Origin: Frigoribacterium sp.
GTDB taxonomy: Bacteria; Actinomycetota; Actinomycetes; Actinomycetales; Microbacteriaceae
Direction: 5' to 3'
Assembly: GCA_025408445.1 (NCBI GenBank)
Contig: JANYIZ010000132.1
Span: 1 to 56,939 of the forward strand
DNA length: 56,939 nucleotides
The translations under genes were made by a program, and so were the position numbers. Positions 8,998 through 45,012 of this stretch are shown in pieces. The notes under the pieces are model-generated. The model did not search any database. It was not told the DNA's origin and saw nothing but the letters and a program-made list of their open reading frames with translations. Position 1 is the first letter of the stretch. Each line of letters starts with the position of its first letter.

Positions 8998-9068
8998 ACA
9001 GGACCGTAGACCCACCGTGCACTCTGGTCAACACCCGAACTGTCTACCGGTCCGAGTACCGGCGAGAA

Positions 9069-9170: not shown

Positions 9171-9179
9171 ATCGCGGCA

Positions 9180-26505: not shown

Positions 26506-26964
26506 TCACGGCTTCCAGACCATGAGCACCACGACCGCCACGAGAAGCAGGCTGGCCGTGCCGGATCCTCCGGCGATGGCACCGTAGCCGTCGGGCGACG
26601 AGGTGGTGCCCGTGCCGTCCGCACCGGTCGACGCCTTGACGCCAGCGGCCGCTCGTTTCATGGCTGGCACCGTCACGAACAGGTTGACGGCGAGGGCGAC
26701 TACGTACAGGATTATCGACCACACGATCCACCCCGACACGAGGGACCAATGTTCTTTCGGGTCGCTCATGCCGAGCACGGCGAAGCCGAACAGGAGGACA
26801 ATGAGTGAGAGCAGCGAGAAAGTGGATGTCGCCTTGGCTAGCGCGAGCACCTGGGCGCCATTGCGAGCCCGCGCAGCCCGCATTGCGGTCATCGGCAGAA
26901 TCGCCATCGGACCAACGATGAAAACGGCCGCGACCACGTGCAAAACGGCGAATAGGGTATCCAT
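26506..26964 (-). CDS. DUF2269 family integral membrane protein
   Basis: A 152-residue protein with four hydrophobic segments (LFAVLHVVAAVFIVGPMAIL, SLLSLIVLLFGFAVLG, IVWSIILYVVALAVNLFV, TASLLLVAVVVLMVW), matching the DUF2269 pattern. An early His and a segment spacing reminiscent of small heme or quinone membrane proteins are seen, but no function is established. Its start codon lies 76 bp inside the 3' end of the USP gene upstream, so it is probably translated in coupling with it and may share its promoter and the DosR-like site. Confidence 0.8.
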   Translation of the reverse strand: MDTLFAVLHVVAAVFIVGPMAILPMTAMRAARARNGAQVLALAKATSTFSLLSLIVLLFGFAVLGMSDPKEHWSLVSGWIVWSIILYVVALAVNLFVTVPAMKRAAAGVKASTGADGTGTTSSPDGYGAIAGGSGTASLLLVAVVVLMVWKP

Positions 26965-27374
26965 GATGACCTCTCGTAAGCGTAATCAGTCGGGGAGTGC
27001 CGCGCCCCGGCGGGCGCGAGCTGCAGAGGCACGGTTGCGCTAAATACGCCGGAGAGCACGCTGCTCCCGTGCGACCCGATGACAACGAGATCCGCCGCGA
27101 CAGATTCCCGGGCCAACACGTCGACGGCCTTTCCTCTCAGCAGCACCATCTCGATTTTCGACCGGGGAGCAAGTTCGCCGAACCGGCCAGCGGCATGACC
27201 GAGCGCTCTCACCGCCTCGAGTCGTTGTGACGACTCGGTCACTGGCACGGCAGATTCGTCGATCGTCATGAGGCGAACATTCAGGTCGGTATTCGCCGCG
27301 CGGGAGATGGTCCACTCGAGTGCTGCGGCACTGGCGACTCCGCCGTCGATGGCGAGAACGATTCTCTCGGGCAT
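26889..27374 (-). CDS. Universal stress protein (UspA fold), abnormal C-terminus
   Basis: A 161-residue UspA-like protein starting MPERIVLAIDGGVASAAALE with the first strand and nucleotide-binding Asp, and reaching LVVIGSHGSSVLSGVFSATV near residue 108. That is close to the ATP motif GxxGx9G(S/T), but the third Gly is Ala. A normal USP would end about 15 residues later with a hydrophobic strand such as CPVVVVP. Here the frame continues with 45 unrelated residues antisense-like in composition and overlaps the DUF2269 gene by 76 bp. The last strand is missing, so it is either a frameshifted or a naturally variant USP. A DosR-like site lies about 80-100 bp upstream. Confidence 0.75.
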   Translation of the reverse strand: MPERIVLAIDGGVASAAALEWTISRAANTDLNVRLMTIDESAVPVTESSQRLEAVRALGHAAGRFGELAPRSKIEMVLLRGKAVDVLARESVAADLVVIGSHGSSVLSGVFSATVPLQLAPAGARHSPTDYAYERSSWIPYSPFCTWSRPFSSLVRWRFCR

Positions 27375-27454: not shown

Positions 27455-27474
27455 CCCGGGACCAAAGACCCTCC
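27455..27474 (-). promoter_or_regulatory. DosR-box-like site upstream of the USP gene
   Basis: Core GGGACCAAAGACCC (27458-27471) matches 12 of 14 positions of the DosR core GGGACTWWAGTCCC; over the full 20-bp consensus the match is about 13. It lies 84 bp before the USP start and overlaps the end of the marR-like gene. The weakest of the three USP-linked sites. Confidence 0.4.
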
Positions 27475-28366: not shown

Positions 28367-29116
28367 TCAGCCCGTGGCCAGTGCGGCGGAAAGCCCCGGG
28401 GTCGCTGTCATCGCGCCGTCCCGTGCCACGGTGAGCACGTCGACAGACCAGCGCCCGACGATAGTCGCGAGCGTACTCGGCCCGCCCGCGATGATTGCAG
28501 TGGCGAGCACATCCGCCGTCTCGATGTCGTCGGCAACGACGGTCGCCTGCACATAGGTGCGATCGAGCGCGCTGGCGGACCAGATGTGATCTCCGCGCTC
28601 GGCGCTTCCCGAGGTGGCAACCGCGTGACGTGAGCCGGTCAGGGAGATCGCGAAGAGGAGAGCGGAACGGTCGGCAGGGTCCACCACACCGACGCGCCAG
28701 GCCGCCCCGTCTGGCTGGTAGCCGGCGGAAAGCACGTCCCCGCCGACATTGAGGCACCAGTCTAAGAACCCGCCGCGGAACAACTCGTCTGCCGCGGCCT
28801 GCATGGCGAGCGCCTTCACGGTGCCATTGAGATCGACCGTGCCATCCGGACGATGTGGCGTGAATGCTCCGCCGGTCTCGTCCCGCCAGCGCAGGGATGC
28901 CGCGTATGACGACCTCAGCTCCTCGCTCGAGGCGGTGAGCGCGAGCTCTCCCCGCGCGACCAGTGAAAGCTCCGAGTCCGGGCGGTAGAGGCTGAACCGC
29001 TCGTCGAAGTCCGCGAAGCACTGAATGACCGCCTCGACCGCATCCGCTGCGCCCTTCCCCTCCGGAAGCGTGAGGGACACGACGGTGCCCATGGCCTCGA
29101 AAACATGGGGCGTCAC
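28367..29116 (-). CDS. apbE: FAD:protein FMN transferase (ApbE)
   Basis: A protein of about 249 residues of the ApbE family, which attaches FMN covalently to a Ser or Thr of target proteins using FAD and Mg2+. Visible features are FEAMGTVVSLTLP at the N-terminus, the FDERFSLYRPDSEL block, the DLNGTVKALAMQAAAD segment near 120, NVGGDVLSAG near 145 and TSGSAERGDHIWS near 190. There is no lipobox, so the enzyme is shorter than secreted E. coli ApbE and may act in the cytoplasm or be exported in another way. The GTG at 29116 lies 4 bp after the stop of the FMN-binding protein gene, its likely substrate, giving a tight operon. Confidence 0.88.
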   Translation of the reverse strand: MTPHVFEAMGTVVSLTLPEGKGAADAVEAVIQCFADFDERFSLYRPDSELSLVARGELALTASSEELRSSYAASLRWRDETGGAFTPHRPDGTVDLNGTVKALAMQAAADELFRGGFLDWCLNVGGDVLSAGYQPDGAAWRVGVVDPADRSALLFAISLTGSRHAVATSGSAERGDHIWSASALDRTYVQATVVADDIETADVLATAIIAGGPSTLATIVGRWSVDVLTVARDGAMTATPGLSAALATG

Positions 29117-29120
29117 GGTG

Positions 29121-29624
29121 TCAGATACCCGCCTGGTCCAGTGCGGACTGTAGCGAGGAGAGGTAGGCGTCACTCGTGTAGGTCGCGCCGCCCACGGTCG
29201 ACACCCGGGCGGACTGGGAGCTGAGCACCTCCGACCGGAGAATGGGGGCGGCGCTGTTGCTGATCTGCACCGACCTGCCGCCGTCGTCGGTGAGATGAAG
29301 GGCCTTCACATCGGTGATTTTGCCGTTCGCCACCACGACCTGCACCTGCACGCTTCCGTACTGGGTACTCACACTGTTACCAGTGAAGGTTCCACCGGGC
29401 GCCGCAGGTGCCGCGGGCGCTGCTGGTGCGGTTGGCGCCGCCGGCGCTGCAGATACAGAGGGTGTTGGCGCGGGGCTGGTAGCCCGTGCAGTGGCCGCGC
29501 TGTTGCTACCGGCCGTACCCGAAGACGAGTGCACCGCCGTGATGGCGGCGGAGCCGGCCTGCCAGCCAACGATGAGGATGGCGACGGAGGCGAAGATGCC
29601 GCTGAGTGTTGCGCGCGTTCTCAC
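29121..29624 (-). CDS. Membrane-anchored FMN-binding protein, ApbE substrate
   Basis: A 167-residue exported protein. Residues 8-30 are a signal anchor (LSGIFASVAILIVGWQAGSA). Residues 35-80 form an Ala/Pro/Ser/Thr-rich linker with AAPAAPTAPAAPAAP repeats, like cell-wall-spanning spacers. Residues 82-167 are an FMN_bind domain (VQVQVVVANGKITDVKALHL). The motif GGATYTS near residue 148 corresponds to the flavinylation consensus SGATxT of NqrC/RnfG-type proteins, the last Thr being the expected FMN acceptor. It should carry electrons on the outer face, passed from the ferric-reductase-like protein encoded just upstream, with which it shares a 4-base GTGA overlap. Confidence 0.88.
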   Translation of the reverse strand: MRTRATLSGIFASVAILIVGWQAGSAAITAVHSSSGTAGSNSAATARATSPAPTPSVSAAPAAPTAPAAPAAPAAPGGTFTGNSVSTQYGSVQVQVVVANGKITDVKALHLTDDGGRSVQISNSAAPILRSEVLSSQSARVSTVGGATYTSDAYLSSLQSALDQAGI

Positions 29625-31042
29625 CAGTCAAACCTTTCTGTGTGGAGCTGATGCTCGGGGATTCCGGCTCGGCGCGCGTCGATCTCCACGAGGTCGAGCC
29701 ATGCGGTCGGGCCGCAGATGTAGAGGTCAGAGACCTTCAAATCGGGGAAAACACTCCGCAGTGTGACGCCGCGGGAAGAATCGGCCTGCGGCATCCAGCC
29801 CGGTCCGGTGAGTGCACGCTTGCCAACCATCGTGTACACGCGGGCTCCCTTTTTGCGGGCGAGATCTGCGATTTCGTCCCAGAGGTAGGTTTCCTCTCCG
29901 GTCGAGGCGCGAAGCAGAATCGTGGTCTCCCCGGGTTGCACCCGGGAGTCTTCGAGAAACGCGCGCACCGGAGTGATCCCGATGCCGGCCACGACGATGG
30001 CGAGTTTGGGGGCGGTTCGGCCTGCATCCGTAAACATGCCGTATGGACCCTCGAACGATACCCGGGTGCCCGGGCGAACCGCACTGATTGCACTGCTACC
30101 GGTGCCGAGGTCACGCACTGTGATTCGGGCGGTAGTCCCGGTCGGCACTGAAGAAAGCGAGATGGGGTGCGAATGCCACCAGGTGCGCCCGGTCCAAAAC
30201 CGCCAAACGAAAAACTGGCCGCCGGCGGATTCGAGCGAGCGAAGGTTACGACCGGAGAAGTGGATCGACACCACGCCGGGCGCGACGCTCTCAACCCGAT
30301 CGACCCGCAGGCGATGGCGGATGGTCGAGACCACCGGCTCGACGAATCGGTAGGTGGCAATGGACCCGAATGCAAGCACGTAGAGAGCGATCCAGTAGAC
30401 CCGCTCGACGCTCCCGTTCGAGAGGATGCCTCCCACGCTCAGCTGGTGGGGAACGGCCACGAGAACCGCCGCATAGCTGAGCAGGTGCACGAGGTGCCAC
30501 CCCTCGTAGCTGAACCGGCGACGCACCGCCACCAGGGAGGTGATGACCACGACAACCAGCAGGCCGAGCCCGATGAAGGCCAACGGCATATCGGGAATGG
30601 CAAGGAGCGGGCCGATCTCGGCGAACGGGTTGATGCCGGAGCTCAGGCCATATCCGGTGAGGAGAAGAATGGCATGACCGATGAGCAGGTAGAGGGCGGG
30701 CTTACCAAGCGAACGGTGCACGGCGATGGCTCGGTCGTGCCCGACCGTGCGGTCGATGATCGGGATCCGGGCGGCGAGCACGATCATCACCAGGATGAAG
30801 TCCGTCCCGATGAGGCCGGCGATGATCCCCGTGCTCGTGACCGCATCCGCAATGGTGCTGAATTTTGAGGCACCGCCGGTGGCGAGAAAGAGCGCGGCGG
30901 CGGCCGCCCCTGAGGCCCACAGGGAGGTGACCAGGATGTCTGCGATGCGGGCACGGCGGCGGTACTGCTTACGCCGATCCGGAGCAGCCGCTCGCGACCG
31001 CCCCGAAATGACCGGAGGTCGGGAGGTGGTGTTCGCTGACAT
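29621..31042 (-). CDS. Ferric-reductase-like transmembrane flavoprotein
   Basis: A 473-residue protein. Residues 35-235 hold about six membrane segments with His pairs suited to heme ligation (AVHRSLGKPALYLLIGHAIL and EGWHLVHLLSYAAVLVAVPH), as in the ferric reductase transmembrane domain. Residues 250-473 are a ferredoxin-NADP reductase type module: FAD site in WWHSHPISLSSVP near 315, GPYGMF, NAD(P)-binding VVAGIGITPVRAFLED near 370 and LYICGPTAWLDL near 445. It would move electrons from cytoplasmic NAD(P)H across the membrane. Start ATG 31042 was chosen because upstream residues lack family character. The next gene overlaps by 4 bases, and a two-component system precedes it. Confidence 0.88.
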   Translation of the reverse strand: MSANTTSRPPVISGRSRAAAPDRRKQYRRRARIADILVTSLWASGAAAAALFLATGGASKFSTIADAVTSTGIIAGLIGTDFILVMIVLAARIPIIDRTVGHDRAIAVHRSLGKPALYLLIGHAILLLTGYGLSSGINPFAEIGPLLAIPDMPLAFIGLGLLVVVVITSLVAVRRRFSYEGWHLVHLLSYAAVLVAVPHQLSVGGILSNGSVERVYWIALYVLAFGSIATYRFVEPVVSTIRHRLRVDRVESVAPGVVSIHFSGRNLRSLESAGGQFFVWRFWTGRTWWHSHPISLSSVPTGTTARITVRDLGTGSSAISAVRPGTRVSFEGPYGMFTDAGRTAPKLAIVVAGIGITPVRAFLEDSRVQPGETTILLRASTGEETYLWDEIADLARKKGARVYTMVGKRALTGPGWMPQADSSRGVTLRSVFPDLKVSDLYICGPTAWLDLVEIDARRAGIPEHQLHTERFDW

Positions 31043-31107
31043 GACTACAGCCTCTGGGAACTTTCTATGGTCTTGCCGTGAAGGAGACACCCCGCCCGCG
31101 TGAGTTC

Positions 31108-32466
31108 TCACATCTTTGGGATCGACACCGTCGCAACCAGCCCGCCGCCCGTGTTCTGCACCTGCACAGTGCCATTCGCGGCGAGCGTGATCGCTCGCAC
31201 GAGGGCGAGGCCGAGACCGCTTCCCCCGGTGCTCGCCGTTCGCGAATTGTCGGCACGGGAGAACCGGTCGAAAGCGTGCGGCAGGAACGTCTCATCCATT
31301 CCCGGGCCCGAATCGGTGACCCGAAGCACGATCTTTCCGGGCTCCTCCGTGAGGTCGGCATCCACCGATCCACCCGGCGAAATCACCGCCACGCTGTTGG
31401 CGAGCAGGTTATCGGCGAGCCGCGCGAAATTCTCCCCGCTGATCGCAAAGCGCGCTCGGTCATCGACCGGGGAGACGAGCGAGACGGTGAAGCCGACCTC
31501 CGCATCGTTCGCGAGCCCGATCAGGCGAGCCCGGTCGATGCAGCCCATAAGCTCGGAGACCAGGTCATCGGCGGAGCACGGCCGGACCGGCACTGCTTGC
31601 GCATCAAGACGTGAGAGTTCGAGAAGATTGGTCGCGAGCGACGAGAGCCTGGCTACCGAGCGCTCTGCCGCGATCACCTGAGCGGCGAGTGCTGCAGCAT
31701 CGTCGAAGTCGTCGTGGGCGAGCTCGAGCTGGGTCTTGAGCGCGGAGAGCGGCGTGCGCAGCTCGTGGGCGGCATCCGACACCACCTGCTTCTCCCGTGC
31801 GCTCGAGGCGCGAACCCGACCGAGAAAAGCGTTGAGCGTCATGGCGAGCTCCGAGAGTTCGTCCTTCGCCCGGGCGACCGGGAGCACCGAGGTCGGATCC
31901 ATTCCCAGGGACTCGGCCTTCTGGCGCATGCGTCGTACCGGTCTCAATGCGGCCGAGGCGAGCAACCAGGAGGCGAATCCGAACGCGACGAGCAACACGA
32001 TTCCTCCGAGGACGAACGCGATGTCAAGACTCCGCATCGCCAACAGGCTCGATGCGGTGCTGCGGGCGGCCCACAGCGACCACTCGCCGGTGGTGGTCTT
32101 GACAAGCCTGCCGACCACGACGAACGCGGTCCCGTCCTCACCAGAGCTGAAAGTTTCGTTGCGGCCGTCACGATGCTCGACGACTCGGTGGATGTGGCGG
32201 GGCAGAGTGTCGAGCTTCACCTGGCCGCTGGGGTCACGAATTGAGACGAGCAGGCCCTTGCCGGAGTCATCCACGAGTCCCGAAGGATTCGCGACGACCT
32301 CTAACGCGTAGGAGTCCAGGTCGGCCCGAGCGAGAGTGGCGTCGGCGGCTAAGAGAATCGAGACGACCTGGGCGTGTGCCGCCATCATCGCGATGGCGAA
32401 GATCACCGCAGCGACGAGAACACTGCCGATCGTGATCCGGGCACGGATGGTGAGTCGCCCGAGCAT
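31108..32466 (-). CDS. Two-component sensor histidine kinase
   Basis: A 452-residue membrane kinase. Segments near 12-35 and 160-185 flank a sensor domain of about 125 residues outside the membrane. A HAMP linker follows, then HisKA with the phospho-acceptor His in SDAAHELRTPLSALKTQLEL near 240, and HATPase_c with N-box LADNLLANSV, DSGPGMDE and GGSGLGLALVRAI. The start at 32466 lies 2 bp after the response regulator's stop codon. It presumably senses an envelope or metal-related signal and controls the flanking VIT1, reductase and FMN-binding genes; that link is inferred from gene order. Confidence 0.92.
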   Translation of the reverse strand: MLGRLTIRARITIGSVLVAAVIFAIAMMAAHAQVVSILLAADATLARADLDSYALEVVANPSGLVDDSGKGLLVSIRDPSGQVKLDTLPRHIHRVVEHRDGRNETFSSGEDGTAFVVVGRLVKTTTGEWSLWAARSTASSLLAMRSLDIAFVLGGIVLLVAFGFASWLLASAALRPVRRMRQKAESLGMDPTSVLPVARAKDELSELAMTLNAFLGRVRASSAREKQVVSDAAHELRTPLSALKTQLELAHDDFDDAAALAAQVIAAERSVARLSSLATNLLELSRLDAQAVPVRPCSADDLVSELMGCIDRARLIGLANDAEVGFTVSLVSPVDDRARFAISGENFARLADNLLANSVAVISPGGSVDADLTEEPGKIVLRVTDSGPGMDETFLPHAFDRFSRADNSRTASTGGSGLGLALVRAITLAANGTVQVQNTGGGLVATVSIPKM

Positions 32467-34089: not shown

Positions 34090-34899
34090 GTGACCCCTCT
34101 TGTCACGATGATCGCCGTCGCACTTCTCGCCGCGCTGACCCTCGGTGTCGTGCTCGCCCTCCGACTCGAGCATCCGTGGCTGCAACCGTGGGCGCTCCTG
34201 CGCGCGGTCGTGCAGTTGGGCATTCTCAGCCTGATCCTCAACGGGGTGATCAGTAATCGCTGGTGGGTCGCCATCTTTCTCACCGTGATGGTTGCGGCGG
34301 CCACCTGGGTTATCTTCCGACGACTGCGGGTGGCGCCGCGCTACCTTCCCGCCCTCGCCGGCACGGTGATCGGGGCATCCGCGGTTCCCCTCGTTGTCGT
34401 GTTCGCCACCGGGGCGGTGGATTTCAGTCCGCGTTACCTGCTCGCTCTTGGCGGCATCGTGATCGGCAACACGATGACGGTGTGTACCCTGACCGGTCGC
34501 TCGCTCGGCTCTCTCTTTCTCTCGCAGCGTGACGAGATGGAAGCGTGGCTTTCTCTCGGCGCCACACCGCGCCGGTCCGCACTGCGAGCGGTGCGTTCGG
34601 CGGCGTCCACGGCTCTCATTCCTTCCACCGACCAGACCCGCACCACCGGTATCGTCACCCTGCCCGGAGCCTTCGTCGGTGCAGTGTTCGCGGGAGCATC
34701 GCCGATCCAAGCGGCTCAGTTCCAGATCGTGGTGCTCGCGGCCATCCTTGCTGCCGGGGCACTATCGGCGGCCTCATTCAGCGGTATCTTTGGCGCTCCC
34801 GAGGTGTTACCGCTCGACGAGCGCCCCCTCGGGGAAAGCCGATCCCGTTCTTATTCCGGCGCGAGCAAATCCGCGGAGAAGTCCCAAATCGGGTCTTAG
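34090..34899 (+). CDS. fetB: FetB-like ABC permease (UPF0014)
   Basis: A 269-residue permease with about seven hydrophobic segments, the full UPF0014/FetB domain: RAVVQLGILSLILNGV, GASAVPLVVVFATGAV, LGGIVIGNTMTVCTLTGRSL, RSAASTALIPSTDQTRTTGIV and LPGAFVGAVFAGASP. In E. coli FetAB exports iron and gives oxidative-stress resistance. The partner ATPase gene fetA, normally adjacent, is absent on both sides. GTG start at 34090, divergent from the VIT1-like iron transporter gene. Its stop codon lies inside a DosR-like palindrome that probably serves the next gene. Confidence 0.85.
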   Translation: MTPLVTMIAVALLAALTLGVVLALRLEHPWLQPWALLRAVVQLGILSLILNGVISNRWWVAIFLTVMVAAATWVIFRRLRVAPRYLPALAGTVIGASAVPLVVVFATGAVDFSPRYLLALGGIVIGNTMTVCTLTGRSLGSLFLSQRDEMEAWLSLGATPRRSALRAVRSAASTALIPSTDQTRTTGIVTLPGAFVGAVFAGASPIQAAQFQIVVLAAILAAGALSAASFSGIFGAPEVLPLDERPLGESRSRSYSGASKSAEKSQIGS

Positions 34900-34907
34900 G
34901 TCCCTAG
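34888..34907 (+). promoter_or_regulatory. DosR-box-like site upstream of the USP gene at 34941
   Basis: The core GGGTCTTAGGTCCC (34891-34904) matches 12 of 14 core positions of GGGACTWWAGTCCC, and the full 20 bases match 15 positions of TTSGGGACTWWAGTCCCSAA. It contains the fetB stop codon and ends 33 bp before the USP ATG. It shares ATCGGGTCT with the site at 42524. Confidence 0.6.
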
Positions 34908-34940: not shown

Positions 34941-35504
34941 ATGCAACAGATGACCGGAACCTCAGCTACCCAGCCTTCTCACTTCGTCGCCCAACCCGAC
35001 GGGGCTCGCTACGAAGCGGACGATCTCACCCACACTGCCGCGGGTGCGATCACGACCGCCTCCACGGAACGTCCGACCCTCACCGAGCCGATGCGGAAGG
35101 GACGAATAGTCGTCGGAGTGGACGGATCCGAGCCATCCCTCCGCGCCCTTGCTCAGGCCGTGAGCCTTGCGAGTTCCCTCAACACCACGGTGCAGATCGT
35201 CACCACCTGGAAGTACTTTGCCGCGTACGCCGACATCAGCATTTCTGAATGGTCGCCCGAACAGGACGCGACAGATAACATGAACGACGCCATGGTTCGC
35301 CAGTTCGGAGCCGAACTCCCGGGATGGGTGAGCAGCAGCTCCCTCGAAGGGAATGCAGCCCAGCGCCTCATCGACGCGAGCGACGGCGCTGAGATGCTCG
35401 TCGTCGGCAGCCGCGGCCACGGGGGAGTGGTGGGACTACTTCTCGGATCGGTGAGTTCTGCCTGCGCTGAAAAGGCCCACTGCCCGGTGCTTGTCGTTCA
35501 TTGA
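34941..35504 (+). CDS. Universal stress protein
   Basis: A UspA-fold protein of up to 187 residues. The domain begins at GRIVVGVDGSEPSLRALAQA near residue 54 and ends normally with the ATP motif and last strand: VVGSRGHGGVVGLLLGSVSS, then CPVLVVH. An N-terminal extension of about 50 polar residues is unusual; a later ATG at 35091 would give a 137-residue standard USP, but the upstream ATG at 34941 fits the position of the DosR-like site. USPs with ATP-binding motifs are typical members of the DosR dormancy regulon in mycobacteria. Monocistronic, followed by 120 bp and the convergent cydC gene. Confidence 0.85.
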   Translation: MQQMTGTSATQPSHFVAQPDGARYEADDLTHTAAGAITTASTERPTLTEPMRKGRIVVGVDGSEPSLRALAQAVSLASSLNTTVQIVTTWKYFAAYADISISEWSPEQDATDNMNDAMVRQFGAELPGWVSSSSLEGNAAQRLIDASDGAEMLVVGSRGHGGVVGLLLGSVSSACAEKAHCPVLVVH

Positions 35505-35623: not shown

Positions 35624-37441
35624 TCAGCGATCGTCTCCGGTGTGTGTGTGGATGGCCGGGCCTTCGGGGAAGGTCCAGTCAGGAGTTTCGAGCCGAACCC
35701 GGTGCGAGACGAGATCCGCGGGTATGGGCGTGTGGGAGATCACGATCACGGTGCGCTGGTCGTCGCCCGTGTCATCCCCGGCGACCGTGAGGATGTCGCG
35801 CATCAGCTGGGTAGCGAGCTCGGGATCCACGTTGGCTGTCGGCTCGTCGAACACAATCACCGGGAAGTTCGCGAGCAGGGCCCTGGCCAGGGCGAGGCGC
35901 TGAGCCTGCCCGCCGGAGACGAGCGCACCGCCGTCGCCCACGCGGGCAGACAGACCGCCGCGCTCCCGCATCCAGTCGGCGAGTCCGACCCTGGCGAGCA
36001 CCGCCACGAGTTGCTCATCGGTCGCGGAATCGTGTGCAAACAGGAGATTCTGGCGGATGTCTTCGTCGAACAGGTACGGCGACTGCTCGCAGAGGCCCAC
36101 GATGTCGCGCACAGAGTCGCCCGACAGCTGCCTGGACTCGACACCACCGATGCGGTAGCTGCCGGTGTAGTCAAGGAAGCGCACCAGAACATGCGCGAGG
36201 GTCGTCTTCCCGGAGCCCGACACACCCTCGACGACGACACGGTCACCGCGGCGCAGGCTGAGGTTGAGGCCGCTGAAAGCGGTACCGGATTCACCGGGCC
36301 AGCACGCACCGACGTCAGTCAGCTGAAGCACCGGCACCGACTCGGCACGAGGGCCGGTCTGTGGCGCGGGGCTGGGCTGTGGCGCGGGGCCGGAGCGAGG
36401 CGCAGCGGGCTCGGTCGGTATCTCTCTTGAGATGTTCGTGGGAGTCGCATCCGCCACCCGCCGAGCGCTCGCGTACACCTGCCTGAACGCTCCGAGAGCG
36501 AGCGGAGCGCTGGCGACGACCTCGAAGACCGCCAGGGGAATGAGAGCAATCACCGTGAGGGCGGGTCCTTCCAGTCCGTGCCCGAGCGCCGAGACACCGA
36601 CAAGCAGCGCGGCGGCAGACGCGAGGGTGGCGAGAGCGGCCAGGATGGCGGAGGTTGCTCCGGCACCACCGGCACGGGCGAGAGTGGCAACGCGAAGGCG
36701 GTGGTCTGCGGCCTCCACCCGGGCGATCCGCCCCGCAAGGGCGTCGAAGGCGACGAGCACATCGATGTTCGATACGTAGTCGAGCAGCTGGTCCGCGAGA
36801 GCACCTCGAAGCGGAGCGATTGATCGTTCTGCCCGTCCGGCGATCGCCGACTGCACGAGGGTTGCAGCGCCGAACGCCAACAGGAGCGCCACCGCGAGTG
36901 CGACACCGGCGGACGGCAGGACGATGCTGACGCCCACCACGCTGAGCACGGCGGTGACAACTGTCACCAGCAGCGGCTGCACGACTCGCAGCGGCATGTT
37001 CTGCAGTTCATCGACATCGTTCACCAGTCGGGCGAGCAAGTCGCCACGCCCGGCTCCACGCGCACTGCCGCGCAGTCCGTCAGGTGCGAGCGGCACCAGC
37101 CGCCGATAGATCCCGACCCGTAGCGCCGAGAGCTGGCGGAACGCCGCATCGTGGCTGCTGAGTCGCTCGACATAGCGAGCGGAGCCGCGAAGCAGCGCAA
37201 ACGCACGAACGCCCACGATCGCCGCGCCGAGGAAGAGGATGGGCGGATGCTCCGCCGCGCGGGTAATCAGCCAGGCCGATGTCGCGAGAAGGCCCACCGA
37301 ACTGAGCGCGGAAATCACTCCGAAGAACACCCCGGGCATGAAGCGGCCCAGGGGCGGCTGGGCGAGGCGGAGAACGGCCACAGTGGGTGAATCTGCGTTC
37401 ATTCGGATGTCAGAAGTGATGTCAGAAGTGATGTCAGACAC
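35624..37441 (-). CDS. cydC: CydC, heterodimeric ABC exporter subunit for cytochrome bd assembly
   Basis: A 605-residue ABC exporter half with about six N-terminal membrane segments (PGVFFGVISALSSVGLLATS onward) and a C-terminal ATPase with Walker A GVSGSGKTTLAHVL near 398, signature LVSGGQAQRLALARALL near 500 and Walker B VIVFDEPTANVD near 530. With CydD it exports cysteine or glutathione, in this phylum presumably another thiol, needed for cytochrome bd maturation. A Pro/Ala/Gln-rich insert (PAPQPSPAPQTGP) links the two domains. The start codon lies in the 3' end of cydD with 8 bp overlap, and the first codons are an SDIT repeat produced by a 12-bp tandem duplication; ATG 37402 (MNADSP) is an alternative start. 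Confidence 0.93.
   Translation of the reverse strand: MSDITSDITSDIRMNADSPTVAVLRLAQPPLGRFMPGVFFGVISALSSVGLLATSAWLITRAAEHPPILFLGAAIVGVRAFALLRGSARYVERLSSHDAAFRQLSALRVGIYRRLVPLAPDGLRGSARGAGRGDLLARLVNDVDELQNMPLRVVQPLLVTVVTAVLSVVGVSIVLPSAGVALAVALLLAFGAATLVQSAIAGRAERSIAPLRGALADQLLDYVSNIDVLVAFDALAGRIARVEAADHRLRVATLARAGGAGATSAILAALATLASAAALLVGVSALGHGLEGPALTVIALIPLAVFEVVASAPLALGAFRQVYASARRVADATPTNISREIPTEPAAPRSGPAPQPSPAPQTGPRAESVPVLQLTDVGACWPGESGTAFSGLNLSLRRGDRVVVEGVSGSGKTTLAHVLVRFLDYTGSYRIGGVESRQLSGDSVRDIVGLCEQSPYLFDEDIRQNLLFAHDSATDEQLVAVLARVGLADWMRERGGLSARVGDGGALVSGGQAQRLALARALLANFPVIVFDEPTANVDPELATQLMRDILTVAGDDTGDDQRTVIVISHTPIPADLVSHRVRLETPDWTFPEGPAIHTHTGDDR
37406..37438. repeat. 12-bp tandem repeat at the cydD/cydC junction
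   Basis: gatgtcagaagt occurs twice and is followed by a third partial copy of 9 bp. It encodes SDITSDITSDI at the N-terminus of CydC and lies at the 3' end of cydD. Confidence 0.95.
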
Positions 37442-39071
37442 GGAGCGCGACCCCCAGTTCGATGTTTTCGTCCGCAGCGGCGATGATCGCCGGGCGATGG
37501 CTCACGACGAGCACGGTGTGGCCTTCGTCGGCGAGTCGGCGGAGTCCGCGGAGTAATTGTGCTTCAGCCCGGGAATCGAGAGCGGCGCTGGGTTCGTCAA
37601 AGACCAGAACGGGACAGAATCGGTCGATTCCGCGGTAGATCGCTCGGGCGGCAACCACCCGCGCGGCCTGCCCACCGGACAGTCCGCTGCCTGTCACACT
37701 CACCGGCAATTCCGGGTCGAGAGAGCCGAGAGCGGCCAGGGCGAGCGCTCGGCGTACGAGCGTGACATCCGGCTGCAGCGCACCGAGCGCCACGTTGCTG
37801 GCGATGGTGCCCTCGAGCAGCGGTGCTTCCTGTCCCGCCCACGCCGTCCGGGACCGGCGATCGTCGACCGCAGCGGCACCACCGATTTCGATCGTCCCGT
37901 CGAAGGGCACGAAGCCGAGGAGTGCGGCCACAAGCGAGGATTTGCCCGATCCACTCGGACCGGCCAAAACAGTCAACCGACCGGGACGAATCACCGCGGA
38001 GAAGCGGTCGACTGCAACCCTGCCCTCGTGGCGCACGCTCACCTCGGTGAAGCGCAGCTCACTTCGAATGAGCGACGTCGCCCGTCCGCCCAGTGCCTCG
38101 GCCTCTCGCGTCACCGCCTGGGCAGCATCAAGGATTTCGAAAATGTCTTCCGCGGCGGCGATGCCATCCGCGGCCGCGTGAAAGTTCGCTCCCACCTGGC
38201 GAAGCGGGAGGAATGCCTCCGGTGCGAGCAGCAGCACGAAAAGTCCAACCGCAAGGCCGAGGCTTCCGTCTATCAGCCGCAACCCAACGGAAACCGCCAC
38301 CAGAGCCACCGAGAGGCTCCCGATCAGCTCGAGGGTAAAGCCGCTGAGAAACGAAATGCGAAGCACTTTCATCGTCTCGATGCGGTACGACTCGGTGAGC
38401 GACTCGATGCGCGCTGCCTGGCGATGCTGTCGGCCGAAAATCTTGAGAGTGGCGAGTCCGCCAACCACATCGAGAAACCGGCTTGATAACTGCGCGAGCA
38501 CCAGCCACTGTCGCCTCTGTACCGCCCGGGTCGCCAGCCCGATCAAGATCATGAAGATCGGGATCAGCGGCAACGCGATGACCACGAGGATGCCGCTGGT
38601 CACGTCCTCGAGGAAGATTACGACGATCACGAGCGGAGTGGCGATCGCGGTGAGAATGAGCTGGGGGAGGAAGAGCGAGAAGTAGCCGTCGAGGGCATCA
38701 AGCCCGGCCCCGGCGGTCGTCACGAGATCAACTCGGTTGCGTCCGTTGAGCCACCCGGGGCCGAGGCGGGCAAGCCCGGTGACGAGGCGCCGGCGCAACT
38801 GGCTTTTCACCACCGAAGCGCCGCGGGCCGACGCGACATCCATCACCCAGATCGTGGCCGCCCGCAGGATTCCCACCCCGGCCAGGGTCATGATGTCGGG
38901 GAGTAATTCGGTGAATGACCTCCCAGCGATCGCTCCCACGATCGCCTGTGAGAGCACCAAGCAGAACGCAACAGTCGCGATCGTCTTCACGATCCCCAGT
39001 AGGACGCCAACGCCGAAGAAGGTGCGCGCCGCGGCCGCATAACGCAGCAGCCGGGGATCAAGCGGACGCAT
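37434..39071 (-). CDS. cydD: CydD, heterodimeric ABC exporter subunit for cytochrome bd assembly
   Basis: A 545-residue ABC exporter half. Membrane domain from RTFFGVGVLLGIVKTIATVA to about residue 290, with the family segment LPLIPIFMILIGLATRAVQR and the FGRQHRQAARI motif. ATPase: Walker A LAGPSGSGKSSLVAALLG near 365, signature GSGLSGGQAARVVAARAIYRG near 465 (with GG rather than a standard Q-loop pair), Walker B PVLVFDEPSAALD and switch His in VSHRP. Partner of CydC. Start ATG 39071 is 4 bp after the cydB stop; the overlap with cydC at the other end implies translational coupling across the operon. Confidence 0.93.
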   Translation of the reverse strand: MRPLDPRLLRYAAAARTFFGVGVLLGIVKTIATVAFCLVLSQAIVGAIAGRSFTELLPDIMTLAGVGILRAATIWVMDVASARGASVVKSQLRRRLVTGLARLGPGWLNGRNRVDLVTTAGAGLDALDGYFSLFLPQLILTAIATPLVIVVIFLEDVTSGILVVIALPLIPIFMILIGLATRAVQRRQWLVLAQLSSRFLDVVGGLATLKIFGRQHRQAARIESLTESYRIETMKVLRISFLSGFTLELIGSLSVALVAVSVGLRLIDGSLGLAVGLFVLLLAPEAFLPLRQVGANFHAAADGIAAAEDIFEILDAAQAVTREAEALGGRATSLIRSELRFTEVSVRHEGRVAVDRFSAVIRPGRLTVLAGPSGSGKSSLVAALLGFVPFDGTIEIGGAAAVDDRRSRTAWAGQEAPLLEGTIASNVALGALQPDVTLVRRALALAALGSLDPELPVSVTGSGLSGGQAARVVAARAIYRGIDRFCPVLVFDEPSAALDSRAEAQLLRGLRRLADEGHTVLVVSHRPAIIAAADENIELGVALRV

Positions 39072-39075
39072 CGAC

Positions 39076-40125
39076 TCAGCGACCGAGCACTGGTGCCGAT
39101 GCGGACGGGGAGTCGGCAAGCGGCTGCGTGTCCTCTGGGATCGATGCACGGGTGATGCGCTTGCGGAACACCCAGTACGTGTAGGCCTGGTAGGCGAGCA
39201 CGAAGGGCAGCACCGCCAAGGCGACCCAACTCATCACCGTGAGGGTGTACGGAGTGCTCGACGCGTTCGCGATCGTGAGGCTGTTGGCCACGTCATTGCT
39301 CGCCGGCATCACGTCGGGGAAAAGTGCCGCGAAGAGACTCGCGACCGCGATGGCGATCGTGCCGGCCATGAGACCGAATGCGTAGCGCTCCCGTCCGCGG
39401 AGATTAGCGAAGAACGAACCGATCAGTAGCACCGCTGCCAACGTGGCGAGCAGCCAGGAAGCGACCTGACCGTGCGCGAGGTTGGTCCACAGGAGGAAGA
39501 CCGCAGCGACGAGGATCGTAATCGCACCCGACCGCACGGCGAGTCTCCGCGCCCGCAGTCGCAGGTCACCGTCCGTCTTCAGCGAGATGAACACCACGCC
39601 GTGGGTAAAGAACAGCATGAGCGTCGTGAGCCCGCCGAGCAGTGCGTAGGGGTTGAGAAGGTCGAACAGCGTTCCGGTGTAGTTGTGGCCGACATTGAGC
39701 GGAACACCCTGCACAATATTGGCGAACGCCACTCCCCACAGCAGTGCCGGCACAGCCGACCCCACCACGATCATGCCGTCGAACCATTTCTTCCAGCGCG
39801 ATTCCGGCCGGTGGTGGCGATATTCGAAGGAGACACCACGAGCGATCAGTGCGAGCAGGATGAGGAGAAGTGCGAGGTAGAAACCGCTGAACAGCGTGGC
39901 GTACCACTCCGGAAAGGCGGCGAACAGCGAAGCACCTGCCACAATCAGCCAGGTCTCGTTGAGGTCCCAGACCGGTCCGATGGTGTTGATCATGACGCGG
40001 CGATCGATCTCGTCCCGACCGAGAAAAGGCAGCGCCATCCCGACGCCGAAGTCGAAGCCGTCGAGCACAAAGTATCCGATGAAAAAGAAGCCGACAATCC
40101 AAAACCACAGAATATTGAGATCCAT
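39076..40125 (-). CDS. cydB: Cytochrome bd ubiquinol/menaquinol oxidase subunit II
   Basis: A 349-residue CydB with about eight or nine membrane segments. The N-terminus LNILWFWIVGFFFIGYFVLDGFD, DLNETWLIVAGASLFAAFPE near 55 and LARGVSFEYRHH near 95 are the family's signatures. It forms the core oxidase dimer with CydA. ATG 40125 (MDLN) has GAGGAA at a suitable distance; an in-frame GTG at 40128 is possible. Lies 18 bp after cydA and 4 bp before cydD on the same strand. Confidence 0.95.
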   Translation of the reverse strand: MDLNILWFWIVGFFFIGYFVLDGFDFGVGMALPFLGRDEIDRRVMINTIGPVWDLNETWLIVAGASLFAAFPEWYATLFSGFYLALLLILLALIARGVSFEYRHHRPESRWKKWFDGMIVVGSAVPALLWGVAFANIVQGVPLNVGHNYTGTLFDLLNPYALLGGLTTLMLFFTHGVVFISLKTDGDLRLRARRLAVRSGAITILVAAVFLLWTNLAHGQVASWLLATLAAVLLIGSFFANLRGRERYAFGLMAGTIAIAVASLFAALFPDVMPASNDVANSLTIANASSTPYTLTVMSWVALAVLPFVLAYQAYTYWVFRKRITRASIPEDTQPLADSPSASAPVLGR

Positions 40126-40143
40126 CACTTATTCCTCACGCTC

Positions 40144-41553
40144 TTAGTACACAGTCACTCGGGCGGTCGGGACTTCGGAGTCGTCGGTGACCGGCGCGCC
40201 CTCTGGTCCCTTCTGGGCGGCTCGCTTCAGGAGTCGGAATTCGACCACCGCGAGAATGCCGTAGACCAGCGTGAACGCAACTATCGAGATCAGCACGTCG
40301 AGACCGGTGAGGTTGGGCGAGACGCCGTCCTTGGTCTTGAGCAGGCTGAAGACGATCCAGGGCTGGCGGCCCATCTCGGTGAAGATCCAGCCGACGATCA
40401 TTGCCGCGAGAGGCAGTGGGAACGCCCAGACCGCCACTCGCCAGACCCACGGGTTCTTCGGGAGGCGCCCCTTGCGCATCAGCCACAGGCCAGCGGCTGA
40501 GAGCAGCACGGAGAGCATGCCGAGCCCGATCATCCAGCGGAACGCCCAATAGGTGATCCAGACCACCGGCGCGTAGTTGCCGGGTCCGTAGAGCGTGCGG
40601 TACTGGGCCTGCAGGTCGTTGATCCCCTCGACGGTTCCGGTCAGCGTGTGCGTCGAAAGGAATGACAGCAGGTACGGGATGCGGATCGAGAACAGCTCGT
40701 TCACCCCGTCGGGCGTACCAAGAGTGAAGATCGAGAACGAGGCATCCGCCCCAGTCACCGTGTTGTAGGCGGCTTCGGCCGCGGCCATTTTCATTGGCTG
40801 CGTCTGCACCATCACGAGACCAAGCTGGTCGCCGGTGAGCACCGTGAGGATGCCGGCACCGATCATCGTCCAGAGGGCGAAGATCATCGCCGGTCGCATG
40901 GTGTCGAGATTCTGCCTGCGGGCGAGATGCCAGGCGGCGATGCAGATCACGAGCGCGGACGAGACCATGAACGAGGCAACGATGGTGTGCGGGAATGAGG
41001 CGAGGGAGACCTTGTTGGTCAATACCGCCCAAATATCGGTGAGCTCCGCCCGGCCACGTGCCTCGTTGATGCGGAATCCGACCGGATGCTGCATGAACGC
41101 GTTCGCCGCGAGGATGAAGTACGCCGAGAGGATAGTGCCAGCCGCCGTGATCCAGATGGTGGCGAGATGGATGCCTTTTGGCAGTTTGTCCCAGCCGAAG
41201 ATCCACAACCCGATGAAGGTGGCCTCGAGGAAGAAGGCGAGTAGTCCCTCCATCGCAAGCGGAGCGCCGAAGACGTCCCCGACGAATCGAGAGTAGGTCG
41301 ACCAGTTCATGCCGAACTGAAACTCCTGCACGATGCCGGTCACCACCCCCATCGCGAAGTTGATGAGAAAGATCTTGCCGAAGAACTGGGTGAGATGCAG
41401 GTACCTGACCTTCGCCGTTCGGTACCATGCCGTCTGGAATACCGCCGTGGTGGTGGCCATGCCGATCGTGATCGGAATGAACAGGAAGTGGTAGATCGTG
41501 GTGAGCCCGAACTGCCACTGCGACAGGACGAGGGGACTGAGGATGTCGTTCAC
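40144..41553 (-). CDS. cydA: Cytochrome bd quinol oxidase subunit I
   Basis: A 469-residue CydA. The N-terminus SRWQFG-like motif is SQWQFGLTTIYHFLFIPITI with the heme His near 22. Also visible are GVVTGIVQEFQFGMNWSTYS, the long loop with SFPHTIVASFMVSSALVICI (second heme ligand His), and NPWVWRVAVWAFPLP. Length, below the 520 residues of E. coli, indicates a short Q-loop form, usual in actinobacteria. The oxidase transfers electrons from menaquinol to O2 with very high affinity and is used under low oxygen. First of four cyd genes in a row; a USP gene lies 31 bp upstream and probably shares the DosR-controlled promoter. Confidence 0.96.
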   Translation of the reverse strand: MNDILSPLVLSQWQFGLTTIYHFLFIPITIGMATTTAVFQTAWYRTAKVRYLHLTQFFGKIFLINFAMGVVTGIVQEFQFGMNWSTYSRFVGDVFGAPLAMEGLLAFFLEATFIGLWIFGWDKLPKGIHLATIWITAAGTILSAYFILAANAFMQHPVGFRINEARGRAELTDIWAVLTNKVSLASFPHTIVASFMVSSALVICIAAWHLARRQNLDTMRPAMIFALWTMIGAGILTVLTGDQLGLVMVQTQPMKMAAAEAAYNTVTGADASFSIFTLGTPDGVNELFSIRIPYLLSFLSTHTLTGTVEGINDLQAQYRTLYGPGNYAPVVWITYWAFRWMIGLGMLSVLLSAAGLWLMRKGRLPKNPWVWRVAVWAFPLPLAAMIVGWIFTEMGRQPWIVFSLLKTKDGVSPNLTGLDVLISIVAFTLVYGILAVVEFRLLKRAAQKGPEGAPVTDDSEVPTARVTVY

Positions 41554-41584
41554 TGGTATCTCCGGATCGGATGTGGCAGGGCTG

Positions 41585-42469
41585 TCATTTCGTTCGCCCG
41601 GCCAGTTCGGCTTCTGGGTGGCCCTCGGTGTCGCCGTGCACGACGAGCGTCGGGCCGGCGATGTTGAGCAGCACGTCGTGGCTCACCGGTCCAAGGGCCG
41701 CCATCTGCGCGCCGTGTCTTCGAGAGCTGCCGATCACGAGCAGTTCGGCAGACATCCCTGCGTCGACGAGAGCTTCCGCCGCGGGTCGACGCAGAGTGCG
41801 CGTGCGCACCAGTACCCCGCCTCCCGCGCTGTGAGCGAGGGCCACGGATTCGGACCCGAGCGTCTCCAATGCATCCCTGGCACGCTGCTCCGCGGCTCCG
41901 TCTTCCGCTTCAGAACCGTGCACGCTGGATGTCCAGGCGCGCAGCAGCACCAGCTCCTCGTGCACACGGTGTGCTTCGGTCGCGGCGAACCGCACGGCGG
42001 CGCGACCGGCAGCCGAGTCGTCGATACCGGCGACGATGCCATGACGCTCGGTTGTCGACCCTTCGGGGATCACGGCGACCGGGCACCAGGCCGTCGCGGC
42101 GAGCTGGAGGCTGCGTGAGCCGAAGGCGCGTCCGTGCAGGAAACCCGTCTTATGAGTTCCGATCACGACGAGGCCGACCTCCCTGGACGCGACGCCCAGT
42201 TCGACCATCGGATCACCGAGAAGTACGCGGGTACTCACCGTGACCGCGGAATCGATCGAACGGGCGTAGACCGCCTCCTTCTCCACGAGGGCGTAGGCGG
42301 AGGGGTGGAGTTCTGAGATCGACTGTTCGCCGATCATGCCCCACTCGTCATCGACGACGTGCACGAGCACGACGCAGGATCCCAGCGTCGCTGCCCGAAG
42401 TACCGCCCAGCGGATCGCCGCATGGCACGCCGAAGTACCGTCTACGCCGACAAGGATCATTTTGTCCAT
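41585..42469 (-). CDS. Tandem-domain universal stress protein
   Basis: A 294-residue protein of two USP domains, as in many mycobacterial DosR-regulon USPs. Domain 1 begins MDKMILVGVDGTSACHAAIR and ends VVIGTHKTGFLHGRAFGSRS with AWCPVAVIP; domain 2 begins GIVAGIDDSAAGRAAVRF and ends LVIGSSRRHGAQMAALGPVS with LNIAGPTLVVHG. The ATP motif is imperfect in both (GTHKTGFLHGRAFGS and GSSRRHGAQ). The ATG at 42469 is chosen because the upstream extension is not protein-like. It lies 31 bp before cydA and 54 bp after a DosR-type box on the same strand, so usp-cydABDC is a likely single unit. Confidence 0.9.
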   Translation of the reverse strand: MDKMILVGVDGTSACHAAIRWAVLRAATLGSCVVLVHVVDDEWGMIGEQSISELHPSAYALVEKEAVYARSIDSAVTVSTRVLLGDPMVELGVASREVGLVVIGTHKTGFLHGRAFGSRSLQLAATAWCPVAVIPEGSTTERHGIVAGIDDSAAGRAAVRFAATEAHRVHEELVLLRAWTSSVHGSEAEDGAAEQRARDALETLGSESVALAHSAGGGVLVRTRTLRRPAAEALVDAGMSAELLVIGSSRRHGAQMAALGPVSHDVLLNIAGPTLVVHGDTEGHPEAELAGRTK

Positions 42470-42523
42470 CGCACTGCCCCCGATTCTCTCTGGCCTCCAG
42501 CATGAAACGGTGCGGACGAAGTG

Positions 42524-42543
42524 ATCGGGTCTAAAGTCCCGCG
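42524..42543. promoter_or_regulatory. DosR-box between usp-cyd operon and devRS
   Basis: ATCGGGTCTAAAGTCCCGCG matches 16 of 20 positions of the DosR consensus TTSGGGACTWWAGTCCCSAA, and 13 of 14 in the core GGGTCTAAAGTCCC (42527-42540). It lies 54 bp before the USP start (minus) and about 110 bp before the sensor kinase GTG (plus), so one site could serve both. Confidence 0.75.
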
Positions 42544-42652
42544 AACGTTTGCTCAGGCTCGCACCCCGACGCGCTACGCTCGAAAGTGCCGGCACGCGCG
42601 CTGACCCGGTCTCGAATCGGTGTCACTTGACCAGCGTCGGCAGGGGAATCAC

Positions 42653-44374
42653 GTGGCGTCGCAGGACGAACCTCTCACCTTCCCCGATGAGCCGCGAGCC
42701 GAACTCGATCGTGCGCTCAGCGAACTTGTGGACCGCGCTCAGGATGTGCTCGCCACGCAGGGACGCCTGCGCGCTCTGCTCCGGGCGAATCTTGCCGTCG
42801 TGGAACACCTCGAGCTGCCCGTCGTCCTCGAGCGGATCGTGCAAGCCGCGGTGGACCTGGTGGGCTCCGAGTACGGCGCGCTCGGGGTGATCGCTCCCGG
42901 TGGCGGTCTCGAGCAGTTCATCCATGTCGGGATTCCTCCCGAACAGGCTCTCATCATCGGCCACCTCCCGGAGGGGCACGGCTTACTCGGTGCCCTCATC
43001 GACGACCCCCGTCCAATCCGACTCGAGCACCTCCACGACGACGCGCGGTCAAGCGGATTCCCGGCCGGCCATCCGGCGATGGAGAGCTTCCTCGGGGTGC
43101 CGATCCGGGTGCGCGACGTGGTCTATGGCAATCTCTACCTGAGCAACCAGGCTTCCGGGGCCTTCAGCAGTGAAGACGAACAGCTCGTCGAATCGCTCGC
43201 AGCCTCCGCCGGGTTCGCCATCGATAATGCCCGGCTGTTCGCCGAGACTCGTCGCCGACAGGCTTGGTCTGCTGCTTCCGCCGAGATCACCGCCGCGATG
43301 CTCTCCTCCGACCGGTCGGACTCTCTCTCCACCCTGGTGAGCCGCGTGCTCGTGCTCGCCGAGAGCGACCTCGTCTGCATGATCCTTCCCCACTCGACCG
43401 CCGACACGCTGGTTGTGGAGATCGCTCGCGGCGACGGCGAGGCCGATCTCGTCGGTCGACGCTTCCCCTCGGCCGGCACTCTTGCCGGCAGCGTTCTCGA
43501 GGGTAAGCAGCCCCGCCTCGTCGGGGGCGGAAGCCCCGATTCCGAGCTCTTCTCGACCGAGAACCCGCTCGGCCCGATGATGGCTGTTCCCCTCATTTCC
43601 TCCGGCCGGGCCGAGGGTGTGTTACTGGTCGCGCGCATGGCGGGAGGTCTCTGCTTCGCTCCGTCCGATCTCGAGATGGCCGCGGACTTCGCCGGGCAGG
43701 CGAGCCTTGCCATGCAGCTCGCCCGCGCCCGGGCGTCCGAACAGCGGATGCTGCTGCTCGAGGATCGCGGACGGATCGCGCGCGACCTGCACGACCACGT
43801 CATCCAGCAGCTTTTCGGCACCGGTCTCGAACTGCAGAGCGTCGCCGGATCGATCGAATCGGAGGTCGATCGGGAGCGGATCCTCCAGTCGGTGAGCCAC
43901 CTCGACTCCGCCGTCACCCAGATTCGCACGGTGATCTTCGCCCTCTCCGCTCGCGAAGATACCCGTGATTCTGTGCGGCACCGCATCATCGACCTGGCCA
44001 ACGACATCAGCTCTGGACTGCAGAAGAGCCCGACAGTCGCTTTCACCGGTCCGGTCGACCTCGTCGTTACCAGTGGACTCGCCGATGACGTCGTAGCGGT
44101 GACCCGCGAAGCACTGGCGAACGCTGCGAAGCATGCCAGCGCGGAGCAGACCGCAGTAACGCTCGACGTCGGGGATGGCATGATCCACCTGGTGATCTCC
44201 GACAACGGGGGAGGAATCACCGACACGTCCCGTCGCAGCGGGCTGGCTAACCTCGAGGCCAGGGCGATTAATCGCGGCGGATCGTTCGTCGTGGATTCCA
44301 GCGCCGAGGGCACCCGGCTTTACTGGAGCGTCCCGATGGACAGCAGTGACGAAGACGGAACGGAGGCCTCATGA
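42653..44374 (+). CDS. devS: GAF-domain histidine kinase, DosS/DevS-like
   Basis: A 573-residue soluble kinase with the DosS layout: GAF-A (residues about 50-190), GAF-B (about 200-360), HisKA_3 with phospho-acceptor His380 in RIARDLHDHVIQQLF, and HATPase_c with REALANAAKHA and ISDNGGGI. GAF-A contains GFPAGHPAM with His140, at the position of the heme-binding His of M. tuberculosis DosS (GFPxHHPPM region, from memory), so O2 or redox sensing by heme is likely. Start GTG 42653 is preceded by AGGGGAA; a GTG at 42620 is in frame. The stop overlaps the regulator's start in ATGA, giving strict coupling. Confidence 0.9.
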   Translation: MASQDEPLTFPDEPRAELDRALSELVDRAQDVLATQGRLRALLRANLAVVEHLELPVVLERIVQAAVDLVGSEYGALGVIAPGGGLEQFIHVGIPPEQALIIGHLPEGHGLLGALIDDPRPIRLEHLHDDARSSGFPAGHPAMESFLGVPIRVRDVVYGNLYLSNQASGAFSSEDEQLVESLAASAGFAIDNARLFAETRRRQAWSAASAEITAAMLSSDRSDSLSTLVSRVLVLAESDLVCMILPHSTADTLVVEIARGDGEADLVGRRFPSAGTLAGSVLEGKQPRLVGGGSPDSELFSTENPLGPMMAVPLISSGRAEGVLLVARMAGGLCFAPSDLEMAADFAGQASLAMQLARARASEQRMLLLEDRGRIARDLHDHVIQQLFGTGLELQSVAGSIESEVDRERILQSVSHLDSAVTQIRTVIFALSAREDTRDSVRHRIIDLANDISSGLQKSPTVAFTGPVDLVVTSGLADDVVAVTREALANAAKHASAEQTAVTLDVGDGMIHLVISDNGGGITDTSRRSGLANLEARAINRGGSFVVDSSAEGTRLYWSVPMDSSDEDGTEAS

Positions 44375-45012
44375 TCCGGGTCTTCCTTGTCGACGATCAC
44401 GAGATCGTGCGGCGCGGAATCGCGGAACTGCTCGGTACAGAGCATGACATCGAGGTAATCGGTGAAGCGGGCACCGCGGCGCAGGCCCGGTCACGCATCG
44501 CCGCGACCCTTCCCGATGTGGTGCTGCTCGATGTGCGCCTTCCCGACGGGAGCGGTATCGACGTCTGCCGAGACGTGCGATCGCACAATCCAGAGGTCAA
44601 GTGCCTCATCCTCACGGCCTACGACGACGAGGAGGCGCTGTCCGCTGCCATCATCGCCGGGGCATCCGGCTATGTGCTTAAGGATGTCCGCGGCAGCGGC
44701 CTCGTCGAGTCGCTTCGGAAGGTGGCGAGCGGTCGCTCCCTGCTCGACCCGATGCTTACCCGCAAGGTCATCGAGCGCATCCATACCCGCTCCGACACCG
44801 ACCCGCGCCTCGGGTCGCTGACCGCCAGGGAGACACAGATTCTCTCCCTGATCGCGGGCGGGCTCACCAACCGCCAGATCGGCACGGAACTCTCGCTTGC
44901 CGAGAAGACAGTGAAGAACTACATCTCCGGGCTGCTTGCCAAGCTCGGTCTGCAGCGCCGCACCCAGGCCGCGATCCTGCATCTCGGGTCGCATCCAACA
45001 GCAGAGGGCTGA
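44371..45012 (+). CDS. devR: NarL/LuxR-family response regulator, DosR/DevR-like
   Basis: A 213-residue regulator nearly colinear with M. tuberculosis DosR. Receiver: Asp8/Asp9 in LVDDHEIVRRG, phospho-acceptor Asp54 in LLDVRLPDGSG, Thr82, Tyr101 and Lys104, the same numbers as in DosR. The LuxR-type DNA-binding domain has LTARETQILSLIAGGLTNRQ and AEKTVKNYISGLLAKLG, with Lys178, Lys181 and Asn182 corresponding to the DosR residues that read the box half-site. It should bind the palindromes near the three USP genes and drive hypoxia genes. Overlaps the kinase gene by 4 bases and ends 40 bp from the convergent acs gene. Confidence 0.93.
   Translation: MIRVFLVDDHEIVRRGIAELLGTEHDIEVIGEAGTAAQARSRIAATLPDVVLLDVRLPDGSGIDVCRDVRSHNPEVKCLILTAYDDEEALSAAIIAGASGYVLKDVRGSGLVESLRKVASGRSLLDPMLTRKVIERIHTRSDTDPRLGSLTARETQILSLIAGGLTNRQIGTELSLAEKTVKNYISGLLAKLGLQRRTQAAILHLGSHPTAEG

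Follow-up and report, generated by a model that had tools for sequence, protein, structure and literature searches.

The 56,939-nucleotide stretch of Frigoribacterium sp. DNA analyzed here (contig JANYIZ010000132.1; hereafter the window) contains a DosR-type palindrome at positions 42524–42543, located between a leftward group of genes encoding a universal stress protein (USP) and cytochrome bd oxidase with its ABC exporter (usp-cydABDC) and a rightward pair encoding a sensor kinase and a response regulator. On the basis of the comparisons described below, this locus is interpreted as the central part of a low-oxygen regulon of the DosR/OsdR type in which cydABDC would be switched from the divergent box, a reading to which we assign a probability of about three in four; the bd oxidase is very probably a direct target of a DosR-type regulator.

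The DosR-type box and its conservation

The palindrome, ATCGGGTCTAAAGTCCCGCG (core 42527–42540, assigned to no strand), scores 16 of 20 positions against TTSGGGACTWWAGTCCCSAA, which we take to be the mycobacterial DosR consensus, the same score that had been reported in the earlier, sequence-only reading of this DNA. It is the sole 20-mer that reaches 16 on either strand of the window, and one other, the box at 34888, reaches 15. It also fits exactly the 20-nt DosR/DevR box NNNGGGHCNWWNGNCCCBNN, as quoted in the legend of a supplementary table (PMC2947987). There are three exact fits to this published box in the window, at 27455, 34888, and 42524, every one of which stands before a USP gene; the sequence-only reading had named the box at 42524, which is real, and had overlooked the other two. 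The window therefore shows a trait of the DosR regulon, namely boxes before several USP genes and one beside a sensor-regulator pair.

The window (57 kb) makes up 1.9% of the 3.05-Mb assembly, which is 89% complete. The form of the box with A/T at positions 4, 7, 8, and 11 occurs at eight places in the assembly, three of which are in the window (binomial P = 3.4e-4), and the form with two central A/T bases occurs at 22 places, three of them again in the window (binomial P = 0.0077). Conservation was examined in a sample of 150 Microbacteriaceae genomes, including that of the window, in which the sensor was called at E up to 1e-40 with up to nine first-look candidates scored per genome; this identified the sensor in 57 of the 150 genomes, and 40 sensor loci were fetched for comparison. 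Both sampled genus-mates (L071 and L072) keep the order UPF0014, box, USP, cydC-cydD-cydB-cydA-USP, box, sensor, regulator, and the second box has an identical core before the same USP gene in both. Upstream of the sensor, an exact box was found in 11 of 39 usable loci and a box with ≤1 mismatch in 21 of 39, compared with approximately 4% of random windows; these counts miss boxes lying downstream of the projected start, as in L106, and the exact count was corrected from 12/40 after L095, whose contig starts inside the sensor and gave an artefact hit, was dropped. The clustering of boxes in the window and the conservation of those at 34888 and 42524 in relatives exceed chance.

Boxes before cydA in sensor-positive genomes

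A cydA gene was found in 114 of the 150 genomes, and 118 copies from 113 genomes were examined; four distant copies (30–32% identity; G022, G054, G114, and G124) were left out, as was G053 from the box counts. Of the 52 copies from sensor-positive genomes, 11 have the box GGGNCNWWNGNCCC no more than 300 bp from cydA, compared with none of the 66 from sensor-negative genomes (Fisher P = 6.3e-5). The 11 boxed copies span nine genera, and their boxes stand 59–95 bp upstream of the gene, whereas shuffled versions of the sensor-positive stretches contain a mean of 0.07 boxes and a maximum of one. When ≤1 mismatch is allowed and the distance is limited to ≤130 bp, the counts become 17/52 vs. 0/66. 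In the region from −1500 to −300 of cydA, four boxes were identified in 62 kb from sensor-positive copies, three being the usp box of the window’s genus, and none in 79 kb from sensor-negative copies. With the usp-headed operon included, the association is 14/47 vs. 0/66 per genome (P = 1.2e-6) and 10/34 vs. 0/36 per genus (P = 3.3e-4), all these P values being guides only because the genera do not count as independent.

The CydA proteins encoded behind boxes form groups that are approximately 70–72% and approximately 52–61% identical to the CydA of the window over the aligned stretch, and it is on these CydA identities and on the genera that any statement about lineages or repeated gain rests. 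Beyond this sample, 12 of the best 80 named loci around DosR relatives hold a CydA match, nine of them with >200 bp upstream, and a box is present ≤110 bp before the aligned CydA in three of these nine, from Curtobacterium luteum (Microbacteriaceae) and two Nocardioides.

A USP gene lies ≤1.5 kb before cydA in 5 of the 118 copies, and within approximately 100 bp only in the window’s genus (3/3 sampled); usp immediately next to cydA with one common divergent box is thus special to this genus, as far as sampled. The sequence-only reading had suggested a new regulon layout in a non-mycobacterial genus; the box-cydA link is no peculiarity of one genus, since it recurs in ten genera of the sample when the usp-headed operon is included, and in two Nocardioides loci. 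In a locus from another genus (L109 of G026, 8375–12321), cydB-cydA is followed by USP, box, sensor, and regulator; cydA and the USP gene are separated by approximately 0.7 kb, and a box with one mismatch precedes cydA by 62 bp. Such a cydB-cydA pair with its own box near a USP-box-sensor block perhaps represents a stage preceding the usp-cyd operon of the window’s genus.

The sensor and the regulator

The sensor kinase gene (42620–44374, plus strand, starting at 42620 or 42653) encodes a protein with the Pfam order GAF-GAF-HisKA_3-HATPase. Its GAF-A domain matches the structures of DosT (2vzw, 3.6e-42) and DevS (2w3d, 9.5e-35), and its ATPase domain also matches DevS and DosT structures. In the alignment, His151 falls in the same column as the proximal heme histidine of DosT/DosS; this is the His140 of the sequence-only reading, a number valid only for the start at 42653. 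Tyr173 aligns with the distal tyrosine of DosS/DosT, and Gly89 aligns with Gly85 of DosT rather than with Glu87 of DosS, a glycine/glutamate difference that has been tied, with reservations, to stable O2 binding in a passage of PMC4082495. Among 40 family sensors, the heme histidine and the glycine are each kept in 39, and the distal tyrosine and the phospho-accepting histidine in all 40.

The response regulator gene (44371–45012, plus strand) encodes a receiver-GerE protein (Pfam). Of the solved structures, DevR (3c3w, residues 1–203, E = 4.8e-67) matches it best, over the full length, ahead of VraR (3e-42); in NCBIfam, the best match is MadR, under its cut-off, and no DosR model is among the matches. 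With numbering from the ATG at 44371, the protein has Asp54, Thr82, Tyr101, Lys104, Lys179, Lys182, and Asn183. The first four had been correctly read from the sequence, while the last three had been numbered Lys178/Lys181/Asn182. Lys179, Lys182, and Asn183 are described in part of PMC4082495 as base contacts of DosR, and they and Asp54 carry the same numbers in the two proteins. Elsewhere in the assembly of the window there are two partial matches to the sensor (31% and 29%), and the next match of the regulator is 40% identical. Together, these features support the identification of a DosT/DosR-like pair.

Layout of the locus

The usp gene (41585–42469, minus strand) encodes two Pfam Usp stretches; its ATG at 42469 sits 57 bp from the core of the box, and its stop lies 31 bp from the start codon of cydA, as the sequence-only reading had described. 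It is followed on the same strand by cydA, encoding cytochrome bd subunit I (40144–41553; PF01654, 526 bits), cydB, encoding subunit II (39076–40128; PF02322, with TIGR00203 above its cut-off), and the two halves of the ABC exporter, cydD (37434–39149; TIGR02857 above its cut-off) and cydC (35624–37441; TIGR02868 above its cut-off). The previously proposed gene content of USP, cydABDC, sensor, and regulator is confirmed by Pfam and, for CydB, CydD, and CydC, by NCBIfam.

The second box (34888–34907, core 34891–34904, no strand) overlaps the end of the UPF0014 open reading frame (ORF) and lies 36 bp before a USP ORF (34941–35504, plus strand; Pfam Usp). The third box (27455–27474, core 27458–27471, no strand) lies 83 bp before the ATG at 27374 of another USP gene (26889–27374, minus strand), in which Pfam Usp covers residues 1–112 only; the tail past residue 112 has no family match, possibly reflecting a frameshift or a decaying gene. 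Also downstream of the third box, the minus strand at 28367–31111 encodes, as read from the translations, an ApbE-like flavin transferase, an FMN-binding-domain-like protein, and a ferric-reductase-like membrane protein.

Evidence against control from the box, and alternative explanations

In addition to the non-independence of the genera, several observations weigh against the interpretation that the box controls cydABDC. The box at 42524–42543 heads usp and is 973 bp from cydA, so that control of cyd depends on read-through over the 31-bp gap; a scan of 41400–42700 for promoters and terminators found no such site, which settles nothing. No exact box is present at 41 of the 52 cydA copies of sensor-positive genomes, nor at the cydA of G053, which was viewed separately, and hence the box-cydA link is recurrent, not general. 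In one sensor-negative genome (L174), cydA is preceded at 66 bp by a site that resembles the box but is missing its central A/T pair. Finally, the assembly contains the loose pattern GGGNCNWNNGNCCC 38 times per strand, fewer than its reversed control (59 and 51), which makes the plain genome-wide count uninformative. The direct DosR control of the oxidase put forward in the sequence-only reading is thus backed by the boxes of sensor-positive relatives, although most of the relatives’ cydA genes lack one; the search of the genome and its siblings that it suggested gave no enrichment of the loose pattern in the assembly, but did reveal clustering in the window and a box kept in the genus-mates.

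An unlikely alternative is that the box serves only usp and the sensor-regulator genes, with cydABDC being transcribed from a promoter of its own under another regulator and following usp only incidentally. This explanation is favored by the rarity of a USP gene within 1.5 kb before cydA and by the many sensor-positive genomes with no exact box at cydA, and cyd of M. tuberculosis and M. smegmatis has been assigned, in the parts of the reports concerned, to SenX3-RegX3 (PMC5874750) and PrrAB (PMC6898941). It is opposed by the shortness of the usp-cydA gap, by the adjacency of usp and cydA in all three sampled members of the genus, and by the nine other genera in which a box immediately precedes cydA.

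Control of cyd by Rex or a CRP-type protein, with the DosR box being secondary, is highly improbable. The precedent for Rex is the cydABDC operon of Streptomyces coelicolor, which is regulated by Rex according to a passage of PMC2799521. The N-terminal Rex domain PF06971 was not found in the 89% complete assembly of the window, a search of unproven sensitivity (controls were positive in 7/14, with no named actinobacterium among them), and no Rex-like operator was present in the window at ≤3 mismatches to an operator pattern that we assume to be the appropriate one. CRP-like matches, scored with a pattern likewise assumed, occur at the number expected by chance (16 vs. 15.8), with none in the gap between usp and the sensor. 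Rex and CRP-type control were rejected on these grounds. The idea that the palindrome arose by chance and has no function is scarcely credible and was also rejected, since, despite the relative scarcity of the loose pattern in the assembly, the box is at the identical place in both sampled genus-mates and boxes are enriched upstream of the sensor in relatives.

Other boxes in the genome

Further boxes in the assembly stand beside genes whose identities were read from the sequence. On contig C16 (L023, 6191–8107), a box stands before a small membrane-protein frame, a cytochrome b-like gene with a weak match to ExtP below the cut-off, and a 317-aa frame with no Pfam or NCBIfam match; this may be a further respiratory operon of the regulon. 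A box at 4997–5010 of C24 (L024) is flanked by an FAD-binding oxygenase-like gene and a flavodoxin-like gene, one on C77 is flanked by a pyridoxamine-oxidase-like gene and thymidylate synthase, and one on C176 precedes a zinc alcohol dehydrogenase gene. Other neighbors suggest no obvious regulon, namely the thymidylate synthase on the other side of the C77 box, CNNM/mycothiol-transferase-like genes (C217), a purine permease-like gene (C27), and DUF5652 (C51); C139 and C191 were left out of this comparison. Of the 22 places in the assembly whose box has two central A/T bases, some are probably chance occurrences.

Comparison with known systems

To our knowledge, and as the sequence-only reading also held, cyd lies outside the core DosR regulon of Mycobacterium tuberculosis. 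The present system resembles DosS/DosT-DosR (DevS/DevR) of M. tuberculosis in sensor architecture, the heme histidine, Asp54 and Lys179/Lys182/Asn183 of the regulator, the box, and the USP targets, and differs in the position of the box, which here heads usp-cydABDC and in relatives precedes cydA, whereas mycobacterial cyd is assigned, in portions of reports on M. smegmatis and M. tuberculosis, to SenX3-RegX3 (PMC3116866, PMC5874750) or PrrAB (PMC6898941). A 2010 study of M. smegmatis, earlier than the SenX3-RegX3 and PrrAB assignments, describes the regulators of mycobacterial cytochrome bd as “still unknown” in one of its passages (PMC2799521), and CydA and CydB of M. smegmatis rise with CO alongside part of the dos regulon, a need for DosR being unstated in sections 6 and 8 of that report (PMC8125079).

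Outside mycobacteria, a DosR-like box and USP genes around the pair are also found for OsdK/OsdR of S. coelicolor. The narG2 site of OsdR, AGGGACCTTCGGCCCC, has the core GGGACCTTCGGCCC, which was found before several cydA genes in relatives, and predicted OsdR targets include USP, zinc dehydrogenase, and pyridoxamine oxidase genes, like the boxed genes described here (PMC5069765, in part). In contrast, the words “cyd” and “cytochrome” are absent from the main text of PMC5069765, and S. coelicolor cyd is given as the Rex target mentioned above. The same 20-nt consensus was also used outside Mycobacterium for predicted DosR/DevR boxes of Rhodococcus equi in PMC2947987, the main text of which does not contain “cytochrome bd”. 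No published description of a DosR box before cydA was found in a literature search of limited coverage, confined to titles and the beginnings of abstracts. The type of switch is already known; what looks new is its repeated connection to the bd oxidase, together with the usp-cyd operon.

Proposed mechanism and its implications

We infer heme binding, phosphotransfer, DNA binding, a single usp-cyd transcript, induction, and autoregulation, and these would combine as follows. The heme GAF-A sensor, DosT-like by its glycine, would lose O2 or bind NO or CO and would then phosphorylate Asp54 of the regulator. The regulator, once phosphorylated, would bind the GGG-N8-CCC palindrome at 42524–42543 and activate usp-cydABDC leftward and, from the same divergent site, would probably activate its own sensor-regulator genes rightward; the two further boxes would place two more USP genes under its control. 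Cells short of oxygen would in this way co-produce the bd oxidase, the CydDC exporter, and stress proteins.

A broader proposal, for and against which we consider the odds to be about even, is that in Microbacteriaceae and Nocardioidaceae DosR-type regulators directly switch the bd oxidase, the box having been gained repeatedly before diverged cydA genes, and that the window’s genus has hard-wired this link through cydABDC lying behind a DosR-driven usp, whose one divergent box is shared with the sensor-regulator genes. If this is true, the Dos system would be a respiratory switch and not just a dormancy program. With the box of a dormancy regulator directly before cydA, this family would offer a straightforward and testable example of a terminal oxidase under the control of a heme O2 sensor, and the presence of the box there suggests that the targets of Dos systems shift between actinobacteria.

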